NCBI GenBank assembly: GCA_964019415.1
Contig: OZ025884.1
Coordinates: 2,909,875 to 2,973,874, forward strand
Direction: 5' to 3'
Length of the DNA stretch: 64,000 nt
Source: Ianthella basta
Taxonomy: Eukaryota > Porifera > Demospongiae > Verongiida > Ianthellidae
Below the pieces are notes generated by a model, which was given only the letters and a program-made list of their open reading frames with translations, searched no databases and was not told where the DNA came from. Numbering within the stretch: the first letter of the stretch is position 1; each line of letters starts with the position of its first letter. Below are positions 1-63,829 of the stretch, piece after piece. Position numbers and translations under genes: made by a program.

Positions 1-3000
1 GTTCTGATTTTGCTCTTTATCTTTACCTTTGTGTCGTGATCATCCTGTAAGCCACTTTTGCCTTCCAGCCCAGATAGATCAGGAACAGATGGAAATGTGT
101 ACAGTGAGGGGTAGTGGGAGAGCAAGTCAGCAGAGAGAGCATGCAGGGCAGACAAAATGCAATGACACACTTTCTGACAAAATATAAATAGCTGCACCCT
201 GAAGTACTGCCACCACGCCTATTGCTGGTCAAAATCTGCTCACTATCACTAGCAAAAGTGGGGTTCCTTGGCACCCCTGGATCTCTCCCTAGATCCACCA
301 CTGGTCTGGCACTACAACAGGTACTGTATATAATTATATGCTTCCAGATATGTACACAACTATATTCCTTCAAAGCATTTCAACCAATCGAGTAAGCATC
401 AGAGACTCACCTGGAAACTCTGTATCAAGGTTTAGGTGGCATAGGCCATTGCTGACACCATGCACCACCTCCCCTCCAGTAATAGTAAGGTCCGTGCTCT
501 TAGCTAGGTTAAGATCTTCTAGACTGTCCTCCACATCAAATATGTCCTTGTTAGCATTAGCTGTATCATTGGATACCATCTCACTCAGAGCACTCTTCAG
601 TGCAGCGCATTTTGGGTCCTCATCACTTCTCTCCACCATCTCCATGATCTCGCTGTAGGTACCACAAGCGAGGCATTCACCCTATATACAGATTGGAATA
701 AAGAAGCTGAGATACGTTCTCAGGAAACCATACTATACTGCAGTGCATATGCATGACAGCTACGTACAAACACATGAGAAGGGGCTGGGAACTTATATAA
801 GTGTCTTCCTATAGGCCCTTCCAAGCCACCTAAATTTATACGTACTTTATATTTGTAACTGCAATGATTGCAATGGAAGTTATGACTCAAAAAAGATGGG
901 AGAGGAAGGAAAAATTGGCACCAGCCGGCATTGAACCTAGGACAACTTACACTCTATCCTGGAGTTTCAGCAGCCCAAGCCAACCAACCCTGCTGTAACA
1001 ATTCACCTTTCCTTGCCTTGTAGGCTGGTCTGGAATGATAGAGTGTAAGTTGTCCTGGGTTTGATGCCGGCTGGTGCCAATTTTCCCTACCTCATCTATC
1101 TTTCTTTCCAGTTGTGACTTCCATAATCATAACGTGAGGTAGATACATTAATGAAAGCATGTGAATAAACCAATAGGGTACAACATGGAGTAACACATAT
1201 AGAATATGTGTATATATAGTGGCAGAAAATCCCACCTGGTCCACTACCAGCATTGTGTCGGCCAGCTGGGCATACTGCAGCTGGTGGGTGACCAGCACCA
1301 CCACACTGCTGCTCAGTACGCCCTTCAGGCAAGTTTCAAACAGCCTGCGGCCAACAACAGTGTCCACTGCACCGAGAGGGTCATCCAACAGGTACACATC
1401 TGCTCTACGATAAACGGCCCTATAAAACAGGCAGAGAAGAGAGTAAGTGATAGAACACATCACCTGGTCCAGCATAAATATCAGTGACTCTGACAAATTG
1501 TACTGAATCAAGCAGTGGAACGTCCAGCAAAGACCCACTCTACTATATACTGTACAGTAGCAAAAACTGGGAATATTTCAAGCAGTAGATAAAGCATTGG
1601 GTAAATACGTAGTGAAGAACACTTTGACCATGTAGGCTTCGATTGACAAAGGACTTCTAGTCTCGTTATGACCAAGTGAGTCTGGAAAAGTAAGGGAAGC
1701 CGTGTTACGAATACAGGTACAGTTGGAGGAAGACTCTAGTGGATCGAGGAACTATAATGTGTAGTCTTGCGCACCAGATGTTCCAATGGTTTTGCAGTTG
1801 AGGAGAAAAGGAATGAACTCACCAAACTGCAGAACACGGAATGTCTGGCGCATGAGCTAACTTTATGTACAGTGGTACAACTTAAGCTTCCTTTGAATGA
1901 TGTCGCAACTTTGTACACAGGTTTCCCTCTTGCCAAACAAAATGGAGTGATGTCATAATTAGCTTACAATACTACTATAGTAGCTTGTATTGAGGCAAAG
2001 CTGAGCTGCCCCTTTCAATCTTCCAAACCACACCTCTCCCTTGCTATGTTATAGGAGGTACACAACATTATGCATTTGTATGAAACAGCTAACATATGCA
2101 TGTACACTGGGAGGAGACAGGAGAATCACTACCTCAGTTCCCAGTAGGAAATTGAGGTATAAGTATCAGTGAACTCACCTTGCCAGAGTGACTCTTGCTT
2201 TCTTACCCCCACTCAGTATCACTCCTCTCTCCCCCACAGGAGTAGCATCCCCATAGGGAAGCTGCTTAAAGTCCTCATTCAGGCAGCAGGCATCCACCAC
2301 CTGATGGTACCAGTTGGGGTCAAACTCACGCCCAAACAGAATATTCTCCCTCAGTGTCCCAGAGAACACCCAGGGGTCTTGTGCTGCATATCCTAGACTG
2401 CCGACAATGTCAACACTTCCTTGTAATGGCTGGAGCTCACCCAAGAGACAGTGGAGAATGGTGGACTGCAAGGGAAAAACAGCCCACTCCTAACTGCTTG
2501 TCCTCCTGCAGTCCAGCAATGAGTCATGTTAATTAAACAACACCTAAATCAAAAGTTGATGTATCATACCTTTCCTGCTCCCCCAGGCCCAACAATGGCC
2601 ATCAGTTGGGCACTCTGATCACAGCTGAAGGAGATACTCTGCAATGTCGGTCTTCCTCCAGTCTTCAAACATATAGAAGTACCGATAATAATTCACAAAG
2701 CATTCAATATACATGAAGACCATTTATATACAGAAAATCTGGACTGCAAATCGTTTGCAACAGTTCACAGTACACTTACCTCTCCCTTTCTCCAAGCTGC
2801 AGTTAGCCCCTTCACCGCTACTCTTGGTCTCTCTCTTGGTTTATGTTTATCTAGACATTCTCTCACCCCATTCCCTGAACAGTTAACTTTGGGAACAGGT
2901 GGTCCATCTGGTGACGAACATCTGCTGCAATGCATAGCCTGAGAGGAATCTGGGAGGTCCTTAAGAAGCAGCTCCTGCACAAAAGATGTACAGGAGGTGG

Positions 3001-6000
3001 GATTAGAATTGCATTTCAATGTGCATATGAAATGCTATAATTACAGTGTATACCTCTTGTCTGGTCTGCTATCCCCAACATCCTGCATGGCCCCCACTCA
3101 CAATCAGAGGCAGGAAATTGAGGACAGCACGTGTACTCTAACCATGCATCTATCCACACTATACAAAACAATGCATTTTAATTTTATTTGATTATAAACA
3201 TGTTATCTTGCAGCAAACAACACTGCCTCAACATGCACCCAAGATACCACACACCAAACTGCACACTCACCTGTATCCTGCTAAAGGCAACTTTGGCTTC
3301 ATGGAAACCCACTACTGCATGCAGTATGTAGACAGAAGCTGTGATCCTGACACTTGACATCAGCGAGATGGTGGAGAAGACAATAGCGGGAGTGAGGGGA
3401 TTCCCCGTTGTCAAGACGTACGTGGAGAAGGTGAGTAAGTTGATCACACCGATAATGACAAAGAATAGTGCAGACCTGGAGACCTGGAACAACATTGCAG
3501 CCATGTTCAATCTGGTCTCCTTCCTGTTGGCAAAAGAGTTGCGCAAATACATTAGGGTTTGAGGTAAATAGGACAAACTAGACTAAGGGCATAAAGATTA
3601 ACATACAGAGGAGCCTCGCTAAATGACTACCTCTATAAAATGACCACCTTAAAAATAAGACCACTTTAGTTTAGTCCAAATCCTATGTATACAGGAATTA
3701 TGGTTCTCAGAATTAGGACCACCTCGAAAATAAGACCACTTTTCATGGCCTGGATGGTGGTCTTATTTCTGAGGTTCCACTGTACACAAAATGGCACAAG
3801 AATAAAGAAAAACACGTTTGATTGAGTGTTGTTACTTACATACACACAGAGTCTATACCACTTTCAATGTACACACCTGCGAATGCTGACTACAAGCTCC
3901 TTGAAGGCATGCTCCCAACCATACATCTTGATCACTCTGATCCCAGAGATCACCTGGTTCATGACCTTCACACGTTTGTCTGTGTACTGGGCAGATCTGT
4001 GCCTGCATGTGTAGATAAAACAAGTGTAAAAAGCTGTACAACTCGTTGGGGCTGGAGAACGGACGGGTATGCAACGAACACTTCGCAGGCACAAGTCAAC
4101 AATCAATGAAGCAACAAGGTGAACTAAATCTGTGAGCACTATAGGGTCTCTGATCGTGACTGACTAAGGTGCACGTGCAACAACATCCGGATGATCACAG
4201 AGTTCTAATCAGGTGTGGATACATAACATTTCAAATTACAGATACACATGTACACAACACGATCATCCACACACAGTTAACACAAGGGTCCATGTAGTGT
4301 CACACAGCTCCCGTCGTGGGAAGAATCTGTCCCGGATTCAGTACGATACAAAACCACCATACTGATCTGGTGGACGGTGTGTTCTGGTAGGGTAACGGCT
4401 TGGACATCGAGTGGCCATGTCTGGAACACCACGTTGACCAATTGGAGGGCATGCCCTGGCAGGGCAAAGACTTGGAGATTGGTGGGAGGCTGTGTCGTCA
4501 GCCTCAACAGTTTGAAGCTGCTCGCCAAACACTGGAGGCTCTGCGGTTATCCCGGTAGGGGAAGTAGTGAGGGCAGGAGGTGACGGTTTCTCCTCATCAG
4601 TGAATCGGGTCCCCTCTACACATGGTTTCAATCGGTCAAAGTGAACAACCAAACGCTGTTTCCTTCCATGGGTATGTTGAATCCAGTAAGTGACATCAGA
4701 CAACTGCTTCACAATGCAATAGGGCCCGGTCCAGGGGTGATGCAGCTTACGAGATTGGCCTTTTGGGACAATCACTGAGTGCAGCCAAACTAAACTGTCC
4801 CGCTCATAGGGCTCTCCGTGGATCTTGCGGTCATAGAAATCCTTCTGTCTGGATAACTTCAACTTGAAGTTCTTTTGCACCCTCTCATAGGCAGAACCAA
4901 GCATCCTCTGCAGTGCAGCAGCATATTCACTTGCCGGCTGGGGAGTGATGTCCGACGTACCATATGTGAGTTCAATTGGGAGGCGTGCCTGTCTTCCAAA
5001 CATGAGGAAAAAAGGCGAGTATCCGGTTGTTGGCTGCAGGCTGGTGTTGTAGGCCATGCATACTGCTCGTACATGTTCTTCCCATGTATCATGATGGGTG
5101 CCAACCATGGTAGACAGCATGCTCAGGAGGGTACGGTTGAACCGCTCTACGAGTCCATCACTTTGAAGGTGATAGGGGGTTGTTCTTGTCTTTTTGATGT
5201 TCAGCAACCGACATACTTCAGCAAGAACTTGTGCTTCAAACTGGCAACCCTGGTCGGAATGGAGCTGCTCTAGTGGGGAGAATTGCAGGAACAACTCATT
5301 GGTCAAAGTCTTGGCCACGGTGGAAGCTTCTTGGTTCGGGATGGGATAGGCTTCCATCCAACGTGTGAAGTAGTCACCCGCTACCAACAGGTATGAGTTC
5401 CCCTTAGGCGACTCGGGAAGTGGACCAAGGATGTCCACTGCCACCAATTGCATTGGGTACCCCACAGTGACTGGTTGCAATGGAGCCTTCCTCTTAGGAT
5501 GGGCCGACTTCCGGGTAGTGCACTGCGAGCAAGTCCAACACCACTTCTGCACATCGTTGTAGTGCCAGGCCAATAGTACCTCTCCTTGAGTTTAGCCAGT
5601 GTCTTGTCTTCACCAAGATGACCCGACATGGTACCTCCATGGACATCGTGTAGGACTTCCTCCCTCAAGGCAGTGGGGGTTACCAACTGTAAATGAGAAG
5701 TGTTCCCATCGTTGGACTCGAACACTCTCCACACTATGCCATCCTTGACAATGAGTTGTCTCCATATCTGATGTAGCCGCCGATAACTGGGGCCATTGGC
5801 CAAGGACTCCGAAAGTGGTGGTTTCTGACCACTGTCTTTCCCTCTGAGAATGGGTCCCACATCTGGATCAGCAAGCTGTAAGTCCCTTAGTGAAACCTCA
5901 GATTGACCTCTGCATGAGATAGTAAGCACCAAGGAAGCAGCCTCTTCTGCGAACGGCGTCTGCAAGTGGGTCTCTTGGCCACATTGATGATAAGGCAACC

Positions 6001-9000
6001 TGGATAGAGCATCAGCATTACAATGTCTCTTACCAGGTCTGTGGAGGACAGTAAAATCATACTCCTGCAACCTCTCCAGCCATCGGGCAAGTTGTCCTTT
6101 GGGTTCCTTGAACTTCCAGAGCCAGGTGAGGGAGCTGTGGTCCGTTCTCAATGTGAAGTGTGAACCCAACAGGTACGGGCAGAAGTGCTGCACAAACGTG
6201 ACTACAGCCAACAATTCTCGCCTGGTGACACAATAGCATCTCTCCTGTTTGGACAAGACCTGGCTAGCATAGGCGATGACCTGCTCCTGACCATCCTGGA
6301 CTTGTGAGAGCACAGCCCCCATTCCCACATCACTGGCGTCTGTGTCCAAGATGAATGGTTGATTGAAGTCAGGAAAGGCCAAGATCGGTGCAGATACTAA
6401 CCTCTGGCGGAGCTCCTGGAAGGCTGATGCACATTCAGCACTCCAATGAAATGAGCATGACTTCTCGGTTAGTTGGTGTAGCGGTTTGGCAATCTGTGCA
6501 AAATCCTGCACAAACCGCCGGTAGTAACTAGCCAATCCCAGAAACTGCTGTACTTCCCGGACTGACTGAGGTTCTGGCCAATTACTCGGTTAGGGCTGGA
6601 TTGGTTGCCACGCCTTGATCTGACACAATGTGTCCTAAGAATGTGACCTCCTTGCAAGCAAATGTGCATTTTGTAGGTTTCAGCTTAAGGTTGGCACTAC
6701 GCAGACGGTCAAAAACCTCAGCTAGATTTCTCAAATGGTCCTCAAATGTCTTACCTATCACAATGATGTCATCCAGGTACACAAGGCAACTGCTCCACTG
6801 CAGTCCTGCCAAGACCGAGTCCATCAACCTTTGGAAGGTCGCTGGGACATTGCATAAGCCAAAGGGCATGACATTAAACTCAAAGAGACACAAAAGGCAG
6901 TTTTGGGCTTGTCTGCCTCGTCCATCTCAACATGCCAATAACACTTAGCAGATCTAGGGTGCTAAACCACTTAGCGCCAGCGAGGGTGTCAAGCGTATCA
7001 TCTACCCTTGGAAGAGGGTATGCGTCTTTTCTGGTCACTGAGTTAAGCTCACAGTAGTCTACGCAAAACCTGATACTCCCATCTTTTTTCTGCACTAGCA
7101 CATCGGGGAAGCCCAGGGACTCGTTGATGGCTGAATGATCCCCTTGCATGTCCTGTAGCAATTGAGTGACTTCTTGCCTACGGGCTGGGGGAATTCTCCT
7201 GATTCGTTGTTGGATAGGATGGGCATCACCTGTGTTGATCTGGTGTTGCACCTGGGCGTTTCTGCCGAAATCATCAGGACTGCTAGCGAAAATGTTAGAG
7301 TAACTTTCTAGAAATGAATACAGTACCTCCCGCAGCTCCATTGTCAGTTGTTCCCCCACATGTTCCACTGTGTGCCACAAGTCCCCTTCCAGTTCACGCG
7401 AAATGCTGAGCACTCCGCGACAATCCTGGTCTGAACACTCTACAACCTGGGAGGCCTCCACAGAGCTGGCTACAGCCACTCGACTGCCACTGTACAGAGT
7501 TACCCCCCCTTTTCCAGAGTTAAGGATGCGGACAGGGATCCCCTGCTGTGCTTGAGCAGTTACCACGGCTCGAGCTACTAGTACTGGAGATGAGACTGTC
7601 TCTCTTCCCTCCACTAAGCAGATCCCACCCGAAACTGGACCCTCAGGGGTGGCCAGCACTTCCATCTCGCTCATGGCTGGGACCTCGGTCGTCACTGCAA
7701 CACGCAATACTCTAGTAGGGCTGGGCGTACACCCGCCTCCTGCCTTGTCTAACGGCACCTTACCCCCTGAAAAGCGGAGTTCACCAGCCCCAACAGCTAG
7801 TGTGCAATCATGGGCTTCCAAGAAATCTAACCCGAGCAGCGCTTCAGTGGCGATGTTGCTCAAAACAAAAATGCGGTGATCAAAATGTGCACCCCCAATG
7901 TTTATGCGCAACTCCCAGGAACTATGTGAATCCAGGTTGTCTCCGTTCACACCAACAAACGTCTGGGTACTGGCTTCAAGGGGAGGTCCATTTGGGCAAA
8001 TTCGCTCCCACGTGTCTTTCATTAGGATGGTAAAAGCTGATCCGGTGTCAATCAGGAAGGAGACTCTTCCGTCATTGATAGTGGTGGTGACAAAATATGA
8101 TGAATCGGAGACTGTAGAATATACAGTTGTCGGCGGAGGGCACTGCTTGGGCATTTCCACTTCTCCCTCGAACGTAGGCCCCACTACGCCGAGGATTGGC
8201 CGTTTCCCGGCAACTTCTTTGCCGCATACCCTCGAGCATAGTGCCCTTCTTTGCCATACTTGTGGCAGACGACAGGGGCAGATGAATCCCTGGATTGGGG
8301 TTTATGATCTCTTCGGGTTGCAGATGACTGAGTTTCCAGACACTCGAGGTGTTCCAGGATGGTTGACATGGTCTCCAGCAAGGCATCTGGTCTTCCCCCA
8401 ACTCAGTCTATGGACGCTTCTTCCACCCGTGCTACACACTGCTTTGGAAGCAGGTACGACTCTAGCTCAAGGGTAGCACTCACCGCGGCCTCTACTGTGG
8501 TAGGGTGTCGCTGTTTCACGGCAAAAGCAATCTGGGGATTGTCAATCTGACCCAGATACTGCTGTAGGGCCAGCAGCTGTCGAGCATCTGTGCTCAAGGT
8601 GGGGAATGCCCTATCAGCTAACACTCTGAGCTCTACGCCAAAATCGGCCCATCCCTCAGACTTGCTCTTCGCGCGCGTGTGAAACTCCACCACGTACAAG
8701 GCACGCTTGCTCTCTGGTTCAAAGCATTCGTGCAGCGCCTTGACAGCCTCCTCGTAGTCTCCCTGCGCTGCCTCAGACAGCTGCTTAAATGCCCGTTGGG
8801 CCCGTCCTGTCAGGCGGACCTTCAGCCACAGTAGCTTCTGTTCAGGGGTCCACTTGTTCGCCGCCGCGACGTTACCGAAGTGGTCGAGCCACTCATCCCA
8901 GTTCCCATCGCCTGTATATGCGTCAGGAAGGACAACTGGTTTCCCCGCCATTCCTCCAAAAATCCTGCCGACTACGCCAATTGTAAAAAGCTGTACAACT

Positions 9001-12000
9001 CGTTGGGGCTGGAGAACAGACGGGCATGCAACGAACACTTCGCAGGCACAAGCCAACAATCAATGAAGCAACAAGGTGAACTAAATCTGTGAGCACTACA
9101 GGGTCTCTGATCATGACTGACTCTGGTGCACGTGCAACAACAACTGGATGATCACAGAGTTCTAATCAGGTGTGGATACATAACATTTTAAATTACAGAT
9201 ACACATGTACACAACACGATCATCCACACACAGTTAACACAAGGGTCCACGCAGTGTCACACGAGCATTGTAGGACAGGGGACAATAGTTGAACACTCAG
9301 CATGCAAGTGTCAAATCTTGTATATAGCTAAGATGCATGTTATGAAAGGTTCTCACTAGGACATGCAAGAATAGTATATGCATGATGAGCAGTACACATC
9401 AACTGTATAAATAAATGCATAAATACTGTAATACATAAATACTGTATTTGGATGTCATAACAAACATATGTAAATGCATTGTCGATGTCTCAACACAGTG
9501 TAGCGATAGAGCAAAGAAATGCAGTTCAATTCTTCACTGGCTGTGAATGACGTTATGGTGGATTGGTTTAGTATACTCACCTCAGTTTGGCATAAAGCTG
9601 TGCTATAATGTACAGCAACGGGATCTGCATCAGGACTGCACCCATTCCTGCCAGTGAACTGGGGCCGAGACCAATGTAGAACCATAGCAACAGTGTTACC
9701 ACGACAACATGTATTGGAGTCAGAATGAAGTAGACGGAGAAAAAAAATGCCTGCAAAGAGAAAGTGTGGCATACAAAGTCTTAAAGCCATTTCAAACTGG
9801 AACGTATATAAGGAGAGTCCACAGGAAGCATGGCATATAATATCTTCAAGATGGTAAAGACATGTACATATTCACTTGCACAGTGCACACACTAGTACAG
9901 TGCATATTTTGTATGCACCTGGTCAAGTCTCTGCACATCATAGCCAGCCAGGTTAACAATCTTCCCAATAGTCACTTGGCCAATGGTGGTCAGATTCAAT
10001 TCCAAGATCTTCTTGAAAATGGCACCAGTAGCTGCTATTCGACCAATCATACCTGAAAACACAAGGAACATATCATTTATACAGATCAAAGTCCATAGTC
10101 ACACTCCATCATGTATACTTTACTACATACCTAACACATAATTATATGCAGACTGTACTGTTTAGGAAACTTCATGGTGATTGTCTCATGAATACTTGCA
10201 TAGACAGTACTATGTACTTCAGTAAAATGCGGCGTAAAGCAGACATAGAATGCTTCATATGAAAGTGAATGAAACTGCCAACACCCACCATGTTCGTGGG
10301 CCCACAGAAATGCCCATGCATGATCGAGTCCTACTACAAGAAACGTGGCTGCTATTCCAACAGCATACAGGTAAGCATCTCTGGTTTCTTCTGGTGAGCG
10401 GTCACTGACAAAGTAATTGGCCAACCAGCCCACCATTATCGCAAGGAGAGTCTGAAGGGCTAGCTGTGGAGGACAAAACACAGTAGAATGCAAATTGTCT
10501 ATCAAACCTGTAAAACTCAACTTTTAATAAAACTAGTAAACGCTCATGCCGGGGAATCAATCATCTTTTCAGTTGTGCTATAGTGCATAGCCCACAGAAT
10601 CCTCACATTGAGCCATTCTAACCAGTTATGTGGGCAATGTAGAGTATTAAATAGTGCACTGGCTAGCTTAATATGCACTAATGCAACCGCAGTGCTAAAT
10701 GTTTGAACCATACATGTAGACTGAATGTGAAGTGCCTCCTGGAACAAACCTCAATAGCACAGAGTATGAACTGTGCTACGAGTTTCAACCAAAACAGCTT
10801 TACAATTGCCAGCCATAGTCGTGGAGTCCTGCCCCTCTGTCTGCGATCCAGCTCATGCTGCCAATGCCTACAGAGTGCATATAAGTAGTAAGCAGGCGGA
10901 TAATAACAATAATAGGGGATACACTTAATGTTATAGTGACATGAAGAAAGACTCTTCTTTATCAATAAAAATATAATTTTACATAACACATTATCATAGA
11001 CATAACATTGCACTCAGTTGAAGCTTCCTAATTTATTCAATAAAAGCAATACTCCTATATAGCTACACCATGTAATAATAGAGTCACTTCAACAATACTT
11101 GCATTACAGCTGATGCCATTGTGCTGTATGTGACATTTCATTCATTCAGAAAGTTCAGCGTGACTACAGCACTCGATTAGCAGGTCATTGAAGTAGCCTT
11201 AGACAACCATTTGATCATGAAGCACTAATAACTACACTGCTACTCCTAACAGCACTGTATCACTCTATATCTTCTGCCATGTAATGCTCAACATTTGTAA
11301 CATTTCAACACATGAAGACAAACTGACACCACTACAATCTTCCATTTACGTTTATAACAGCAAACTACCTACAACCCCTCACTTCTGAAAGGAGTGTTGC
11401 AATTTCTCAGACGAGGTATAGTCTGGAGGATCTGGTAGATCCTTTTGCTGCAGCTCCTTCTTCCTCACACCAGCCCAGAACAAAGGCTCCATCCAGCTGC
11501 ATTGAAACACAAGACTCAGGATGATGACATTCAGTCAACTGTAGGTAGCTACGTACCTTGACATAATTATACATGTGACTCGATAGCCCAGCAGGCAATG
11601 CGGTTTCGCTGTTAACTCCTGAGGGGATGTATCTATGTAGGTGGGTCACTGAACTTGAATGACCCATGGATAATCCATGGACGAAGTGTGACCCAAGCCG
11701 ACCTTGTCTAGCTAGCTACTGACGTACGTCGACACACCCCTCCGACCGGATGTTTCAACTCAGAGGCATTCGCTGTGCCGGGCCAAGCGAAATGTGGCCA
11801 AGTACAACATGTACAGACATCTATCCTTCTAAGGACAGTACATCGTATACCATCATGAGCTGGTTAAATGTCAGACATAGCTATGCTGGGAGAAGAAGTG
11901 TCAGTGAGCCTCAGAGGGGTGACACTTACAGCCAAAAGAGTCTTGAAAGAACACTAGCGGACTGATATCCCTTGGATCCCTTCACTCGGAGATGAGAGGA

Positions 12001-13241: not shown

Positions 13242-13757
13242 AAGTAATCTTTGGTGTTGGGTACAGATTTATATATGTACCTCCAAGACTGGGAACAGAA
13301 TCTTTTGCTCTCAACCAGATGAATTGGAACCCACCGTTAGCCATAGATTAACACCTATTCATGTCCAGCATGCAAAATGTGTGCATGCAATTTACGTATT
13401 ACATATGACTGATCTGATACGCATGAATGCAGTGCTGCAGGACGTCATATTTATTACCCCTTATTATGTGCATTCGTCAATTACATATACTTCTTAATAT
13501 TCTAGGCTACATGCAATCATAATATTACAACCAATTAAAACATTACAAATCTAATTCATAGAACAAAATGAATATAATGTGGGAAAACTCATGTATACAA
13601 TGCTAATCATTACTAAACCATGCATGCATACATGTATAACAGTTCTTAAAACATACGCGCACTGATGAAAGGGACCACCTGTTGATGTGCTTGCAGGTAT
13701 GACGACGCGTACGACTGCATACCCTGGGCTTGTTTGTGAGTCTTCTGGTTTAACCAG

Positions 13758-14758
13758 TTCTGCTGGGTGATATTCTCGAAGCACTACTGGTACCAAACCC
13801 AGATCTTGATGATCTTGCACGGGAAATACTTCAGGCAATATTCCGGACACTAAGCCTGCTGATTGAGCGAGTTGTAGGCGACTACCTACCAGGGGGAGAG
13901 TGGGACAGGGCAGCAGGAGATGCAGAAATGAAAACAAACACAAGGTCAGTACAGAAGACCAACACCATTAGTGAAAGGGATTTTGCGAAGTTAGATAGGT
14001 ACATCCGAGAGAAGCCAAATGCACGCCTGCTTGCACTAGAAGCACACATTCTTTTTACAAGTAACAAAACTGCCATGTGGCTAGACAGCAAATCAGCGGA
14101 AGAGAAAGAGAAACTGTTTGCAATGGTACGGAAGGCATCACCACAACACCAGAAAGCATTCAGGGAGAGACAGAAGGCAATACAAGAACAAAGACATGAA
14201 GCACTAAGGCTGAAGCAAGTGGAGATCGAGAGAAAGCAGCAAAGGGCTCTGCAAAGAAAGGAAAAGTACACCAGTGAGCTGATGGAGTATGGCCTCTGGC
14301 AGAGCATAAAGGAGGTGGATGCCTCTTTGATGCCCATGTCAAGATCTAAAAGGGTTACAGCACTCAAGGTGCAGCTACGTTTTCGAAAGAATGTGCTACA
14401 GCAGGTGCACTCTGACAAAACTATTTTCCAGTTCTCTGACAAAAGTAGTGGAACATACTCACCTGACAAGCTTCGTGACAACTTGACAAAACTTATCCAG
14501 GCTGCTCAGTCTGAATGTGAATTGTGTGACAGTCGCACAAGAGAAGTTGAGGCAGAGAGTACTCTCAGACTGGTGGGAAAACGAATTTTGCATGATTTCA
14601 TTGAAGATGATGCTGTTGTACAATACACAGGAACTGTAATATCTCAGGTACCTGGTTTTCCCGAGTGGTATAACACAGTTTACGACAATGAGCCAGATTG
14701 TGTGTACACATTTCAGCTACTAGATGACTACAATAGTGGTGACCTTAAAATACTTTAA
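13758..14758 (+). CDS. Last exon of an unnamed protein: coiled coil plus Tudor/Agenet-like C-terminus
   Basis: An open frame of about 333 codons starting after an acceptor (TTTAACCAG, 13757) and ending at TAA, with AATAAA at 14843. The part upstream of the first ATG (13928) is also coding-like: ILEALLVPNPDLDDLAREIL, then LPGGEWDRA, so the ATG is probably not the true start. The middle (about 14090-14290) is a Glu/Gln/Arg/Lys-rich helix likely to form a coiled coil. The last 45 residues contain YTGTVISQVPGFPEWYNTVYD and end LLDDYNSGDLKIL, resembling Tudor/Agenet-type beta barrels. It sits in a transposon-like insertion, so it may be an element's own protein or a passenger. Family not recognised. 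Confidence 0.6.
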
Positions 14759-16436: not shown

Positions 16437-29030
<12,594 letters not shown>

Positions 29031-29763: not shown

Positions 29764-30441
<678 letters not shown>

Positions 30442-31480
30442 AGCTAGCTATTGCTGCAAATCGAAGTCAAGGACTAGCTGTGTGGGTTGAATTGAGTGGA
30501 CACTGCTGCTGAAGTAGCTTAAGTTATATCCAGACAGCCTCGCAATTGATTAGTACACAGCTAGAAAGGAAGTGACTCATAATAACTTAGCATTCCTATT
30601 CACTTGCATAATCCACTTTGTTACTATATAATCCATGTGATGCTATGTGTAGGAGGACACCATGAATATTATTAGTACCGTGCGCCAGACTCCCTGCAGA
30701 AAGGTCTGGTATTATTGCGTACACTGACTTATGTCCAGGACAAGATCCTGTCCTGGCCAATCAGTTTTGCTGATTGCTATAATTATGACGTCAGCCTAAA
30801 TTCAGAGACAAGGAATTTGCTCACTTGAAGGATACATTGGGTGCACTGTGGCTTTGCTTGGGCACTCTCTGAAAGTAGAACAAGACTGAGCCACACATGT
30901 GAGCAAAACAATGCAAATTCTGACTCGGTACTACTAGACCCTTCCACAAGGGGGTCTGGCACGCAAGACTAGCCCCACAAGTTGTATGATGATTATATAT
31001 TATAAAAATATTATTACATTATGCACATTTATGTTGTCTTTACAGTACCAATACATTTATTGAAATGCATCATCTGGATTACCATAAATTAACTACTTCA
31101 ATCAGCAGGACGCCTTGTCCTCCTGGCCTTGTAGGTTTGTTGTGCTGAATGGCTGTATGTGATGATACTGACCAATGAATACACTTGGTTGTGATAACAG
31201 AGAGTCTATATACTAGCTATAGGGTAGTCTCGTTCCCAGACCACTTCCAGCCGCCACAAAATGGCCGCCGGAAGTGGTCCGAGAAAGAGATTAGCTATAG
31301 GATGGTCCAGTCAGTGGTGCATGAGTCAGCATACTGTTGCTGGGGTGGGCTTATATGATCACCTCTTGGTTAGAGGCAGTCAAGTGATATTCCTAAATAT
31401 TGTATAAGGCTACAGATGGTAGCTGTGCTGTGATATAGGTATTTGTATACAGCTAGGAGTTGTGCATGTGTGAGTATGCA
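30442..31480. repeat. Segmental duplication, left copy (thiaminase 5' flank)
   Basis: It corresponds to 33173-34355. By eye 30637-31279 is identical to 33382-34024 with no indels (constant offset 2745), whereas the 200 bases next to the start codon differ by substitutions and small indels. It ends with a 65-bp hairpin (31227-31291: TAGTCTCGTTCCCAGACC arms) and TATTGTATAAGGCTACAGAT. No gene is recognised in it. Confidence 0.9.
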
Positions 31481-31493
31481 TCGACTGTGGCAT

Positions 31494-31616
31494 ACTTCTA
31501 CATTGACTACAAAACGTAACACACCGTCTTGCAAACTCTGCCCCTGATAACATCATTTGCAAATTTTGACCATTGCAGCCAATTTGGGACAAAAGTTATT
31601 GCGACGTCCAATTAAA
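31494..31616 (+). pseudogene. Fragment related to a C-x2-C zinc-finger ORF
   Basis: It is similar to 36905-37015: shared stretches include CTCTGCCCCTGATAACATCA and CAATTTGGGACAAAAGTTA. The other copy encodes APDNIICKFCPLQLIWDK. This copy has lost the reading frame. It is probably a scrap of a transposon gene. Confidence 0.45.
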
Positions 31617-31624
31617 TGCCCGTT

Positions 31625-31630
31625 TTTATT
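31625..31630 (-). terminator. Possible polyadenylation signal for the thiaminase-like gene
   Basis: AATAAA on the minus strand, 310 bases downstream of the stop codon at 31940. I saw no closer canonical signal. Confidence 0.3.
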
Positions 31631-31689
31631 GCCACGCACAAGCAAACAAGCGAACGAACGAACGCACAGACTGGAAAAGATTAAATATA

Positions 31690-31736
31690 TTATTAAGGAA
31701 AGGATTAAGGATTAAGGATAAGGATTAAGGATTGTA
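31690..31736 (+). repeat. AAGGATT tandem repeat
   Basis: Five to six imperfect units of AAGGATT(A) downstream of the thiaminase-like gene. Confidence 0.75.
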
Positions 31737-31939
31737 TACAAACATTATTACAAAGCTGTAACAGTTTGTTACTACAAAAATCTACTACTGGTACTTCACA
31801 TTAATTTATACTACAGACTTAAGGCTACAATTAAAGGTTCACACCAAGCAGCTGCAGGTAACAATACAATGTATCACTACAGCTGCAACTAGCCTATATG
31901 TTGCTAAAAACCAAGTGCAAATGGTTAGAAAATAGTTAA

Positions 31940-33172
31940 TTACTTCAGCTGGGTGGACGCTTTCGGTTCCAGCCCAAGTGCCTTCTTCAATTGTGCCTGA
32001 AGAGCTTTCCTTTTGCGATAAATGTCATGATTTGGGGCTGGGGTTGAGTGCTTGAGAGCAGCATAGAATTCTTTGTAGCGTTCATCGGCTGCAGCAGCTG
32101 TTTTCGTGAAAAAATCCTTGCGAGCAGGAAGAACATAGCGTGGGTAGAGAACAGAGGATGGCAAATCCCGACCAAAGGCAAAACACGTGCGAAAAGGCAA
32201 GGAAGTGTAGAAATCAACAAACTTGAGAATATCTGCGGCTCTCTGCTGATCAGCAAACTTGGATTTGTTCACAACTACAGCATCCGTGTACGTCAGGAGG
32301 TTGTTGGAATGATCAAGTGGAGGTGAGATGATGCGGAGCGTCCTCTTGAACTTTTTCAATTCGGCACCCTTTTGGAGAGCTTCGCCCATGTTCTCCGAGT
32401 ATCCATACATCAAGATATGCCTGGAAGTAGTTACCTCCGCAATGAGCAAATCGTGGTTGTCGTGAAACTTGCCACTTGTATCTGGATTGCTTCCATCTGC
32501 CAGCTGTCCATAATCAGTGAATTCCTTCAGCTCTTTTATTAGCTCTTGGTCATCTACTGGGGCATCGATACCCTCATACAGTGAACCAGCGCCATGCTTG
32601 TCAACATATGCGTCCAGGTAGAACATAGGAAGCCCCCAACTTCCCCGAAAATCACCGGCCAAGAGGACCCTGTGGCCACTTTCTTGTTCTGCCTTGTCCA
32701 GGGTTTCTTTTAGTTTGTCAAAGGAGTTCCAGTCCTTCAGCAGTGGATTTTTAGGAACGTGATCCACATCTGCCAGCTCCATCAGAAAGCTGGCGCACTG
32801 AAGTGTCGGCACGCCATACAAGTGGCTCTTCAGGTTCGGGTTATAGCTCACGGAGTGAACAGCAGAGGAAGCAAAGACGTCTGTTGTCACTTCAAAGTGC
32901 CTTTCCAGAGGTTGCAGGAGATCGCTCTTTGCCAGTTCTCCGAGTAAAACTGTGTCGACTTCCATGACATCGTACGCGTCTTCACGATCGGCTAAGTACT
33001 TGCCTTTCAGTTCGCTCAAATTGTACGGGTCGGCTGTGGCCTCTACTGTCACTGACACACCGTGCTGTTTCTTAAATTCGTCGGCAATGAATCTTGTCAG
33101 TCCTACAAGCTTATCGCCGGCCAGGTCTGGGATGTAGGGGAAAATCGACACTCTAAGCTGTTGCGATGACAT
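31940..33172 (-). CDS. Thiaminase I-like protein (thiamine pyridinylase family), 410 aa, intronless
   Basis: A single uninterrupted ORF from ATG 33172 to the stop at 31940, close to the length of bacterial thiaminase I. The family cleaves thiamine by swapping its thiazole for a nucleophile (EC 2.5.1.2) and has a periplasmic-binding-protein fold. Visible family features: N-terminal LRVSIFPYIPD, then YDVMEVDTVLL; GVPTLQCASFLM with Cys126 where the catalytic Cys lies; MYGYSENMG with Glu260 where the catalytic acid lies; LLTYTDAVVVNKS; and LYPRYVLPARKDF. There is no signal peptide, unlike the secreted bacterial enzymes, so it is probably cytosolic. It has no introns among intron-rich neighbours, consistent with horizontal acquisition or retrocopying. 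A substrate-binding protein without thiaminase activity is the main alternative. Confidence 0.8.
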   Translation of the reverse strand: MSSQQLRVSIFPYIPDLAGDKLVGLTRFIADEFKKQHGVSVTVEATADPYNLSELKGKYLADREDAYDVMEVDTVLLGELAKSDLLQPLERHFEVTTDVFASSAVHSVSYNPNLKSHLYGVPTLQCASFLMELADVDHVPKNPLLKDWNSFDKLKETLDKAEQESGHRVLLAGDFRGSWGLPMFYLDAYVDKHGAGSLYEGIDAPVDDQELIKELKEFTDYGQLADGSNPDTSGKFHDNHDLLIAEVTTSRHILMYGYSENMGEALQKGAELKKFKRTLRIISPPLDHSNNLLTYTDAVVVNKSKFADQQRAADILKFVDFYTSLPFRTCFAFGRDLPSSVLYPRYVLPARKDFFTKTAAAADERYKEFYAALKHSTPAPNHDIYRKRKALQAQLKKALGLEPKASTQLK

Positions 33173-34005
33173 AGCTAGCTATCGCTGCAAATCGAAGTCA
33201 AGGACTAACTGTGTGGATTGAATTGAACGGACACTGCGGCTGAAGTTATATAAATCCAGACAGTTTCGTGATTGACTAGTACACAGCTAGAAAGGAAGTG
33301 ACTTATAATAACTTAGCATTCCCATTGCATACATTCACTTGCATAATCCACTTTGTTACCATATATAGCTGGTGGCATCACGTGATGCTATGTGTAGGAG
33401 GACACCATGAATATTATTAGTACCGTGCGCCAGACTCCCTGCAGAAAGGTCTGGTATTATTGCGTACACTGACTTATGTCCAGGACAAGATCCTGTCCTG
33501 GCCAATCAGTTTTGCTGATTGCTATAATTATGACGTCAGCCTAAATTCAGAGACAAGGAATTTGCTCACTTGAAGGATACATTGGGTGCACTGTGGCTTT
33601 GCTTGGGCACTCTCTGAAAGTAGAACAAGACTGAGCCACACATGTGAGCAAAACAATGCAAATTCTGACTCGGTACTACTAGACCCTTCCACAAGGGGGT
33701 CTGGCACGCAAGACTAGCCCCACAAGTTGTATGATGATTATATATTATAAAAATATTATTACATTATGCACATTTATGTTGTCTTTACAGTACCAATACA
33801 TTTATTGAAATGCATCATCTGGATTACCATAAATTAACTACTTCAATCAGCAGGACGCCTTGTCCTCCTGGCCTTGTAGGTTTGTTGTGCTGAATGGCTG
33901 TATGTGATGATACTGACCAATGAATACACTTGGTTGTGATAACAGAGAGTCTATATACTAGCTATAGGGTAGTCTCGTTCCCAGACCACTTCCAGCCGCC
34001 ACAAA

Positions 34006-34162
34006 ATGGCCGCCGGAAGTGGTCTGAGTAAGAGATTAGCTAAAGGGTCGTTTGGTAGCCATAGAGTTCTGCTGAAGGACAAGCAGACTACGGCAGCTGC
34101 TGAAAGACGAGCAACAAGCAACGTCCCGCCGGAACTAAGCGCAGAAGGGCGCATACAACAAG
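34006..34162 (+). CDS. Candidate first exon of an unknown plus-strand gene
   Basis: It starts AAAATGGCCGCC (good start context), stays open for 52 codons (MAAGSGLSKRLAKGSFGSHR...) and ends at a strong donor, CAA|GTAAGT. It is Lys/Arg/Ala-rich. A foldback lies right at the donor and no second exon is recognised, so it may be an orphan exon or chance. No family assigned. Confidence 0.3.
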
Positions 34163-60910: not shown

Positions 60911-62204
60911 TAACCGCAGCACACTAGCATTCCACAAATTGCTGCCTCCAAATCCAATCGCCCACTGAACAGAAGTATTTTATACTAGTTACTTAGGGTA
61001 ACTAACGAAATACAGTTTACCGTTTACGTTTACTGCAGTAGTTTAATTTATGAATATAGTTAATGTCTCACGTATCCCGTTCGTGCACCAGCCGAACACC
61101 CTCAGCCTGTTGGGGGTGTCCGTCTGTTGCACTCACCCTTTCCCTGTCCTATAGTTGGGCTCACTACATATAGCTAATACCTAATTCCCTACACCTAACT
61201 ATTACCAGTGAGCCAACCTACTGGTGGTGCACTGGCTTGGTCTTAAGTGGGCTGGGCCCGCCCCCGTGACCTTCGACCTCCTAAGGGTCCCATGACCATT
61301 GACCTTTGACCTCCTAGGAGTCTACATACTAGGTTGACCTTCAAGACGAGGTTAACCCTGGGGGACAGGGCCCAGGCCCCAAGAGGGGTCCCCCAGGTAT
61401 GAATCAACTTTAATGTTACTAGATAATAATATAATTATAAGATTTGATACTGTGTAGCTAGCTAAGTTCCGGGGCTAGATAATAATAATATAGTTATAAG
61501 AGTCAATACAATGCAAGTTCAGGGTGGGAATGGTACTTTAATGTCCATTGTGGCCTAAATGTACCAAGTTATTCCCCGAGGGAGTTTGCTGCCTGTGAGC
61601 CAGGGGCTGCTTGTGGTAGGGTCTTCCTGCAGAGGTGGCTTTGACTGTGGTCCTGGGGAGCCTGCAATACATCTGGAGACTGCTGCTAGGTCTGTGGTAC
61701 TCGGCCTAATGTACTGTTGGTAAGCCATGCTGGGCCACCTGCCCACGATCTTGATCATGGTCTCAGGGCATGAGGGACCCTCGCCTGGCTTGCTGATGTG
61801 GCCGCTCCTATTTTGAAGCTATGTCTGTTAAAGTGATCCCCAATGAGTCCAGTCTGCTGCAGGGCCTGCTGCACCCTGAGCACAAATTGCTCTCTTCTCA
61901 TTGGCGAACCATTCTCGTTGATGAATAACGTCCCTGGGCGGTTGCCCCTAATCGTCAAGTAATCCAACAGTGCTGAGACGGGGCAGGTTGAGGCTACTCT
62001 TGTCCCCTGCCGATATTGATCGGTTTTTGAGGCTTTGATTTGTAGCTCAATGTGATTGTGTGTCTCGTCATGGACATACACAAGGTCTGCCACGCAAAGG
62101 TGTACCTGGGGATTGAACGGCCCTCTCAGTCCCATTAAGGCATGGTGTGCAGTTTTGAAGCCTTCCTGTAAGGGTTCCTCCCCTTTGTTTGTGTAGTGGT
62201 TCGC

Positions 62205-62395
62205 TATACAGCCGATTTCAGAATGGTTGTCCAAAAGGTAAATGGCAAATGGCGTGACATCATAGCAAATGGCAGTACTGTACAATAGGAGTGACGTGTT
62301 GGCAAGCAGTTAAACTAATAGTGACGTCACGCCATTTGATCGTTCTGCCATTTGCCATTTTGGCCAACCGTTCTGAAATCGACTGTATAAACTTG
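62205..62395. repeat. Foldback nested in the 876-bp insertion
   Basis: The arms TATACAGCCGATTTCAGAAT and its near complement (about 62370-62393), plus the inner AATGGCAAATGGCG pair, enclose about 60 bases. Confidence 0.7.
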
Positions 62396-62432
62396 CTATG
62401 TAAACTGTAATGATCGCTACTTCCTGCGTGCG

Positions 62433-62440
62433 TATATAAA
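62433..62440 (+). promoter_or_regulatory. TATA box (TATATAAA)
   Basis: TATATAAAGG lies 36 bases upstream of an ATG in good context (62469). It is one of the clearest core-promoter arrangements in the window. Confidence 0.45.
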
Positions 62441-62468
62441 GGTGGGGCACGTGCATAATTTATTCAAA

Positions 62469-62645
62469 ATGGCGGACACCAAGCAGATAGACTATTTCTA
62501 CCCGAAAGAGTCTCATGCCGGCTATGAAGGAGTCGCTCCAGGCTACTTTCATAACCTTCGCGCGATAGAGCAACATCAATCACCAGTTTTTCCAATTGTG
62601 CTTGTTTGTGGAGGCTACAGTGCTCTCTGGAGACGCTTGCATTGA
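62469..62645 (+). CDS. Short ORF behind a TATA box in the 876-bp insertion (58 aa)
   Basis: AAAATGGCGG start; product MADTKQIDYFYPKESHAGYE..., ending TGA 62645. A GTGAGTCC donor lies further on at 62694 but out of this frame. It may be the remains of a transposase first exon. No family recognised. Confidence 0.3.
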   Translation: MADTKQIDYFYPKESHAGYEGVAPGYFHNLRAIEQHQSPVFPIVLVCGGYSALWRRLH

Positions 62646-63829
62646 TCTAGAAAATACTTCCGTTCGGCATCTTGGTGACCAGTTCTCAGCGCTGGTGAGT
62701 CCTACAATGAAGCACAATGGTGACATTAAGGAGCAGTTTGGAAGAACACGTAGGGTACAAAAATCCTGTTCATAGGTTGAGGAGTTCATAGCCGGATTTT
62801 GTATTTTAATGTCAAAATTGGCTTCCGTTCAGCTACGCTTTTCAAAGCGACTTTTTCGTCCAGCGCTCATCTGTTGCTTGCGCTGCACAGCTTGTCCACT
62901 CTTGCATTCCACAGTAACGTCAAAGCTGCAACCACGGTCAATTCAGGGATAAAAATCGCCTTATAATGTACCATTAAAGATTGCGCAATTTTGCGTGCCA
63001 TGCCTTAATACCCCTGAGCTGAGTCTGGTGCCACGAACTCACTGCAGCGTAGGAAGCTGAAAACTCCTATGCAGCAAGCTGCCCAAAGAGCCCGATTCTT
63101 AAAGCTGTGTGGATCCAATGCGAGGGCTGCCCTAATGTGGTTCATCATAGCCGCAGTAATGGGCAGCCGGATCCCTGCTGGTCCCCTCCCCGCGTTTGCT
63201 CGCTTGATGCCTCTAATCAAGAGATTAACATATGGGGTGTGGAACGATGGTGCCATGCAGGTCGGGTCTCTGAGTAGGCGAAAGAACCTGAGGCCTGCCA
63301 AATACACCTCAATGGTTGAGGCTGCCAGTCCCAGAGACCCCACGTGGGCAATAAACAGAGTCACCTTTTCCCCTGTGATTGAGTGTGGGGCAAGGTGGAA
63401 TTGGGAGGTGAATTTCTGGTACCATAACCAGCCTACTTTGTACGTGTTCATTGTCGCTTTCGCCAGTCCGGCCTCCAGAAAGCATTGAACGTCTCCCTCC
63501 AGCGAAAGGATGTCCATTCTGGGGCCTGCTCGGTGATCTGCCTGACCAGAGCTGGGGGTACCTGTGACGGAGCAGGGAAGCCTGCATATGGGTGTAGTCT
63601 GCGAAATGATGTCACTCTAAAGTGAGACAGATGGTCTGCTCCCGTGTTTTGGGGCCAGCTATGTGAACTGCCCTCAAATGGCAGTTGTACAGTGCCTGCA
63701 GATATGCCAAACATCGCAACATATGACTTGCTTGTGGATCTTGAGCGTGCAGCCGATTAATCTGTGAGACCACAGTATCATTGCCCAACACAAATGACCA
63801 AACAACACAAATGACCACTACAAGAGGAG

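Follow-up and report, generated by a model that had tools for sequence, protein, structure and literature searches.

To our knowledge, thiaminase I genes have been found in bacteria and in a small number of other organisms. The secreted thiaminase I of Paenibacillus thiaminolyticus (PDB 2THI, 3THI and 4THI; family model TIGR04541) adopts a solute-binding fold, and a cysteine activated by a glutamate is catalytic in thiaminase I, according to the available text of PMC10499793. These enzymes swap the thiazole of thiamine for many nucleophiles, as stated in the accessible part of PMC5627462. The text available from PMC10499793 also describes the myxobacterial protein CcThi1, which is annotated as a solute-binding protein, is 18% identical to 2THI and works as a thiaminase I, its active site containing Cys148 and Glu269 and its activity being lost when both Cys and Glu are replaced; moreover, among the organisms that carry thiaminase I homologues this text lists rotifers and cyanobacteria, and animals with members of this family are thus already in print. 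Among eukaryotes, Naegleria gruberi possesses a thiaminase I (PDB 4HCW), and zebrafish has a gene with thiaminase I activity whose product is TenA-like and, in the words of its authors in the accessible text of PMC9839694, without similarity to microbial thiaminase I. Here, we describe an open reading frame (ORF) of 410 amino acids from the sponge Ianthella basta, located in a stretch of 64,000 nucleotides of contig OZ025884.1 (hereafter, the window), which by sequence is a member of the thiaminase I family, whose fold is that of solute-binding proteins. It is a divergent and leaderless member of a known family, placed in an unstudied subfamily, and is unusual rather than unprecedented.

The ORF runs from an ATG at 33172 to a stop codon at 31940 on the minus strand, and is the sole ORF of at least 100 amino acids (ATG, GTG or TTG starts) that overlaps positions 31000–34000. 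An earlier note on this DNA, which gave no strand, had reported a frame of 410 codons carrying the motifs GVPTLQCASF (with Cys126), MYGYSENMG (with Glu260), TYTDAVVVNKS and YPRYVLPAR, and had described its product as thiaminase I-like and without signal peptide; the frame and all four motifs are indeed present. Extending the frame from stop to stop adds just two residues, LA, before the ATG, with an in-frame stop three codons upstream. The protein starts with MSSQQLRVSIFPYIPD and, judged by eye, lacks an N-terminal hydrophobic leader, starting directly with the strand that opens the mature domain, a strand preceded by at least 30 residues in the bacterial rows of the alignment. Since the upstream frame is closed after two codons, the protein would have no leader unless a spliced upstream exon supplies one, which could conceivably be the case. 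The absence of a signal peptide claimed in the earlier note is thus borne out, as far as it can be judged by eye, and the protein does not have the appearance of a secreted thiaminase. The GC content is 0.49 in the ORF and 0.45 in the window.

Assignment to the thiaminase I family is based on several profile and structure comparisons. The Pfam matches of the protein are to bacterial solute-binding families (SBP_bac_8, E 7.5e-12; SBP_bac_1, E 6.8e-6), and its sole NCBIfam match at E ≤ 1 is TIGR04541 (thiamine pyridinylase, BcmE; E 5.1e-10), whereas an ordinary solute-binding protein from Nonomuraea, the single control, has no match to this model at E ≤ 10. With these matches and the tblastn matches to bacterial loci given below, the frame cannot be put down to chance. 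A profile built from the ORF protein and a related Bradyrhizobium plasmid protein ranks 2THI first (E 3.8e-15), with Cys126 on Cys113 and Glu260 on Glu241. As a non-circular check, a subfamily profile (A4) was built from seven rows, namely the ORF protein, five cyanobacterial proteins and one from Candidatus Tectomicrobia; the three of these scored singly (the ORF protein and the bacterial proteins L003 and L007) all fall below the TIGR04541 cut-off. The top five of the 12 PDB sequences that this profile matches at E ≤ 0.01 are thiaminase I entries (5.6e-24 to 1.3e-11, including 4KYS at 5.6e-24, 2THI at 2.1e-22 and Naegleria 4HCW at 1.3e-11), while the first transporter-type solute-binding protein comes sixth, with E 3.8e-7. 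In addition, Foldseek searches with the AlphaFold model of the protein (pLDDT 80.7) place thiaminase I at ranks 1 to 3 (1.3e-19 to 2.6e-17; next match 7.7e-16). The protein thus has the fold of thiaminase I and, by the subfamily profile and the sole NCBIfam match, appears to resemble thiaminase I more closely than the binding proteins of transporters, with phmmer giving a contrary result that is weighed below. A TenA-type animal thiaminase was also considered and discarded, as Pfam and the AlphaFold model give the protein a solute-binding fold, not a TenA or heme-oxygenase-like one.

The active site is strongly conserved. In a MAFFT alignment of 20 rows (the ORF protein, 16 relatives from bacterial contigs, the Bradyrhizobium plasmid protein, 2THI and part of 4HCW), the columns of Tyr50, Asp64, Cys113, Tyr239, Glu241 and Asp272 of 2THI are identical in all rows, and Tyr18 and Tyr270 of 2THI are also retained in the ORF protein. 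The aligned residues reportedly line the cleft of 2THI in the structure described in 1998. The catalytic pair that the earlier note had recognized in Cys126 and Glu260 is therefore placed by alignment on Cys113 and Glu241, and its identification of the protein as thiaminase I-like is upheld by these columns together with the subfamily profile and the sole NCBIfam match. Compared with the Paenibacillus enzyme, the ORF protein shares the solute-binding fold, the order of the motifs and the six columns, but it is only 23% identical in the alignment with 2THI residues 6–244, remains below the equivalog cut-off, lacks a leader and is encoded in an animal-like genome. CcThi1, likened here by its description in the available text of PMC10499793, is likewise a divergent thiaminase I of the solute-binding type, but it is a lipoprotein found in outer membrane vesicles.

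Relatives of the protein are bacterial, as the earlier note had suspected. A scan of genome contigs with patterns from two motifs of the ORF/Bradyrhizobium profile, which reaches relatives bearing those motifs, gave 63 pattern matches and 16 confirmed relatives. The best are five cyanobacterial loci (tblastn E 1e-39 to 8e-31, referring to the candidate stretches only) and a metagenome-assembled genome (MAG) of Candidatus Tectomicrobia (9e-25, likewise), and the other ten comprise one Bradyrhizobium, eight Bacillota and one Crocosphaera MAG. Each of the 17 rows, meaning the ORF plus its 16 relatives, reaches E ≤ 0.001 against TIGR04541, and six bacterial members scanned singly score 52–458 bits, three of them passing the cut-off and three (L003, L007 and L009) failing it. 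The uncharacterized cyanobacterial and Tectomicrobia proteins (L003–L008) are 25–31% identical to the ORF protein, with 61 columns invariant over the seven sequences, several of them in the AGD-RGSW and PRY-PA regions; however, they carry an N-terminal leader or hydrophobic segment (judged by eye), unlike the ORF protein.

In a tree of the 20 rows, the ORF forms a clade with the five cyanobacteria and Tectomicrobia (support 100/99), and this clade holds with the same support at 18 rows, without Naegleria and Crocosphaera. The Naegleria enzyme is eukaryotic and has the catalytic Cys and Glu as in the ORF protein, but a topology grouping the two is rejected (approximately unbiased test, p-AU 0.00014), which makes at least two separate entries of thiaminase I into eukaryotes likely. 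The topology with cyanobacteria and without Tectomicrobia is not rejected (p-AU 0.068), and the donor is therefore not pinned to one phylum. The end branch of the ORF is long (2.35 changes per column). That the frame is open and the catalytic columns are intact at such a length speaks for functional selection. A viral or mobile origin was considered and rejected, given that viral contigs yielded no confirmed relative in three scans, phages none at E ≤ 0.1, and plasmids a single one at E ≤ 0.01, a divergent thiaminase I-like gene on a Bradyrhizobium conjugative plasmid (L001, 5857–7155; 109.6 bits against TIGR04541). Another plasmid match, from Nonomuraea and obtained only with the Bradyrhizobium query, was left out of the alignments because it lacks the motifs and matches transporter models.

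The ORF sits on a eukaryotic, animal-like chromosome, and the earlier note was right on this point. A truncated 5' copy of the gene, carrying substitutions of its own, is joined to an ABCC exon flanked by GT-AG signals as read, and therefore the gene resides in animal-like DNA. By sequence, this exon corresponds to nucleotide-binding domain 2 of ABCC proteins (E 1.2e-20), and it is shared with positions 16967 and 43572, and an ABCC4-like exon lies near the ORF. Ten of the 57 flanking frames listed were scanned with Pfam; six of them match, all with ABC transporter, Spin/Ssty or mobile-element domains (retrotransposon integrase being among the last), and four match nothing. Of these matches, those to tyrosine-recombinase and ABC_membrane domains fell below the Pfam cut-offs. 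No thiamine or bacimethrin operon was seen among the ten frames scanned. At the junction, the filler contains about two TAACCC units and is followed by CTATACAG and then the ABCC exon. The upstream blocks of the two tandem copies (30634–31301 and 33379–34046) are 100% identical over about 640 alignment columns, while the coding end and adjacent bases differ by 8–11%; gene conversion is a possible cause of this identity tract, as is an assembly effect. Near 36.9 kb, further copies of repeats that adjoin the ORF are present.

Taken together, we consider it probable that the ORF is an animal nuclear gene encoding an enzyme of the thiaminase I family that was acquired from a bacterium. Its source would be a branch related to the subfamily now present in cyanobacteria and Candidatus Tectomicrobia, and the gene would be distinct from the line that led to the Naegleria enzyme. 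As known for the family, thiamine would bind where the two lobes of the solute-binding fold form a cleft, and there Glu260 would activate Cys126 for attack on the pyrimidine of thiamine, followed by departure of the thiazole and release of the pyrimidine as an adduct by a second nucleophile, such as a thiol, an amine or a pyridine. Because the active-site residues are kept and the leader is missing, we infer that this catalysis takes place inside the cell. The use of such an enzyme is a matter of guesswork; the likeliest is that it removes thiamine or thiamine analogues either from microbes taken up by the cell or, for deterrence, from tissue. A more specific proposal, in which the animal domesticated a bacterial thiaminase I that now acts in the cytosol and forms a small tandem family, employed directly or through base-exchange chemistry against microbes or consumers, is tentative and rather doubtful at present. 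If true, the thiaminase activity of some animals would come from a solute-binding-type gene of their own, and not from gut bacteria or a TenA-type gene. The leaderless copy with its sister fragment, present in a multicellular animal, would represent a second animal route to thiaminase beside the TenA-type gene.

Several observations weigh against a bacterially derived thiaminase I working in the sponge cell. A host without thiamine synthesis would endanger its own cofactor by keeping a thiaminase in the cytosol; its retention in an animal that depends on thiamine from food might be explained by deterrence, by its use against engulfed microbes, by a change of substrate or by restricted expression. 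The protein reaches 38.8 bits against a TIGR04541 equivalog cut-off of 175 and is not filed as an equivalog. The earlier note had set a best match to another solute-binding family as its own refutation, and here most comparisons came out on the side of thiaminase I. The exception is phmmer, with which the single ORF sequence weakly matches MalE sugar-binding proteins (E 4e-4), thiaminases being absent at E ≤ 1. VIA-align Z scores for thiaminase I (33.2 and 31.9) are tied with or barely above those for sugar-binding proteins (31.5). Moreover, Tyr16 and Tyr222 of 2THI are replaced by Phe11 and Asp241, the tree tool warns of long branches meeting in both trees, and the CpG observed/expected ratio is 0.71 in the ORF compared with 0.45 in the depleted window, and therefore the ORF is not fully host-like. 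Finally, the nearest characterized enzyme is distant, and therefore the substrate may have shifted. According to this last alternative, which we consider unlikely although it is the strongest of the rivals, the fold and the catalytic pair are kept for another pyrimidine or heteroaryl compound, such as damaged thiamine or an antivitamin of thiamine, or for a base-exchange reaction that uses a pyridine or amine of the host and yields a natural product. It would be consistent with the low scores of the ORF and its relatives (77 bits for L003 and 52 for L007), with an Asp at the Tyr222 position in the ORF and the five cyanobacterial rows of its clade (in a stretch that aligns loosely), with the many nucleophiles accepted by thiaminase I (PMC5627462, accessible part), and with the neighbourhoods of the six relatives L003–L008, where a search for a thiamine operon by ORF listing showed, by eye, no recurrent gene. 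However, the six active-site columns are unchanged, and CcThi1, which is about as distant from 2THI, still cleaves thiamine (PMC10499793, available text).

The remaining rivals are less probable still. A non-catalytic binder of thiamine or sugar with the solute-binding fold is hard to reconcile with Cys126 and Glu260 being kept in all 20 rows and with thiaminase I ranking first both by the subfamily profile and by Foldseek; we also know of no partner importer for such a binder in a eukaryotic cell, and this explanation is very improbable. A recently dead gene or an expression-silent relic is only slightly less remote, since the truncated sister copy shows that decay occurs at the locus, but the 410 uninterrupted codons, the intact catalytic residues and the motifs kept despite the long branch speak against it. 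Least probable of all, to an extreme degree, is bacterial contamination or mis-assembly joining the ORF of a symbiont to animal DNA. The single exon, the bacterial relatives and the perfect identity of the tandem upstream blocks next to diverged coding ends, possibly a sign of assembly trouble, would fit this scenario; however, it does not agree with the truncated second copy, fused at codon 37 to the ABCC exon, with the ABC transporter, Spin/Ssty and mobile-element domains in six of the ten frames scanned, or with the recurrence near 36.9 kb of repeats beside the ORF.

As for the distribution of the family, the earlier note had stated that thiaminase I is mainly reported from bacteria and a few eukaryotes, and this stands with the addition that animals are already on record through the rotifer homologues mentioned in the available text of PMC10499793. 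Apart from that mention, for which the paper cites a reference on a rotifer enzyme, no report of an animal thiaminase I gene of the solute-binding type was recognized in the literature consulted, which was mostly open-access and in part available as partial text, and the word 'thiamin' is absent from PMC10176882, which deals with transferred bacterial genes in a sponge. Dolichospermum genomes bear thiaminase I-like genes (L005, 4866–6143; L006, 4127–5392), in contrast to the available text of PMC12637900, where thiaminase I is absent from the reference genomes queried.

Table 1. Features of the thiaminase I-family gene and its tandem copy, with positions in the window.
Feature	Position	Strand	Remark
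Thiaminase I-family ORF, 410 aa, no leader	31940..33172	-	single exon as read
Tyr50 codon	33023..33025	-	aligns with Tyr50 of 2THI; alignment, 20/20 rows
Asp73 codon	32954..32956	-	aligns with Asp64 of 2THI; alignment, 20/20 rows
Cys126 codon	32795..32797	-	aligns with catalytic nucleophile Cys113 of 2THI; alignment, 20/20 rows
Tyr258 codon	32399..32401	-	aligns with Tyr239 of 2THI; alignment, 20/20 rows
Glu260 codon	32393..32395	-	aligns with catalytic base Glu241 of 2THI; alignment, 20/20 rows
Asp297 codon	32282..32284	-	aligns with Asp272 of 2THI; alignment, 20/20 rows
Codons 1-37 and upstream region of the gene	33062..34046	-	half of tandem duplication
Truncated tandem copy: upstream region and codons 1-37 (30331-30441)	30331..31301	-	94% identical overall
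Filler TAACTAACCCTAACC, 15 nt, telomere-repeat-like	30316..30330	-	junction of ABCC sequence with truncated copy of the thiaminase gene
ABCC exon (second nucleotide-binding domain)	30159..30307	-	AG acceptor and GT donor as read; fused to truncated copy
TATA-like TTATATAA	33246..33253	-	about 75 bp upstream of ATG; weak, by eye
AATAAA	31625..31630	-	about 310 bp downstream of stop codon; weak

With regard to the surroundings of the gene, a search of the whole window with Rfam gave no match at the gathering score. The filler at 30316–30330 resembles a scar of double-strand-break repair. An ABCC4-like gene cluster shows extensive duplication within 1–31000 and 39000–60000 of the window (e.g., 1–4024 and 22312–26307 are 94% identical), and a Gypsy-type retrotransposon with an integrase frame is inserted in one ABCC copy at 4021–9262, bounded by direct repeats of 285 bases that are 95% identical (4021–4305 and 8978–9262). 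This element is absent at the matching place near 26305 in another ABCC copy. Frames at 61755–63616 match phage-integrase domains weakly, below the Pfam cut-offs, and perhaps belong to a DIRS or Crypton element. Inside the ABCC cluster, the plus strand also contains an open frame of 334 codons (13754–14758) that ends in a Spin/Ssty domain.
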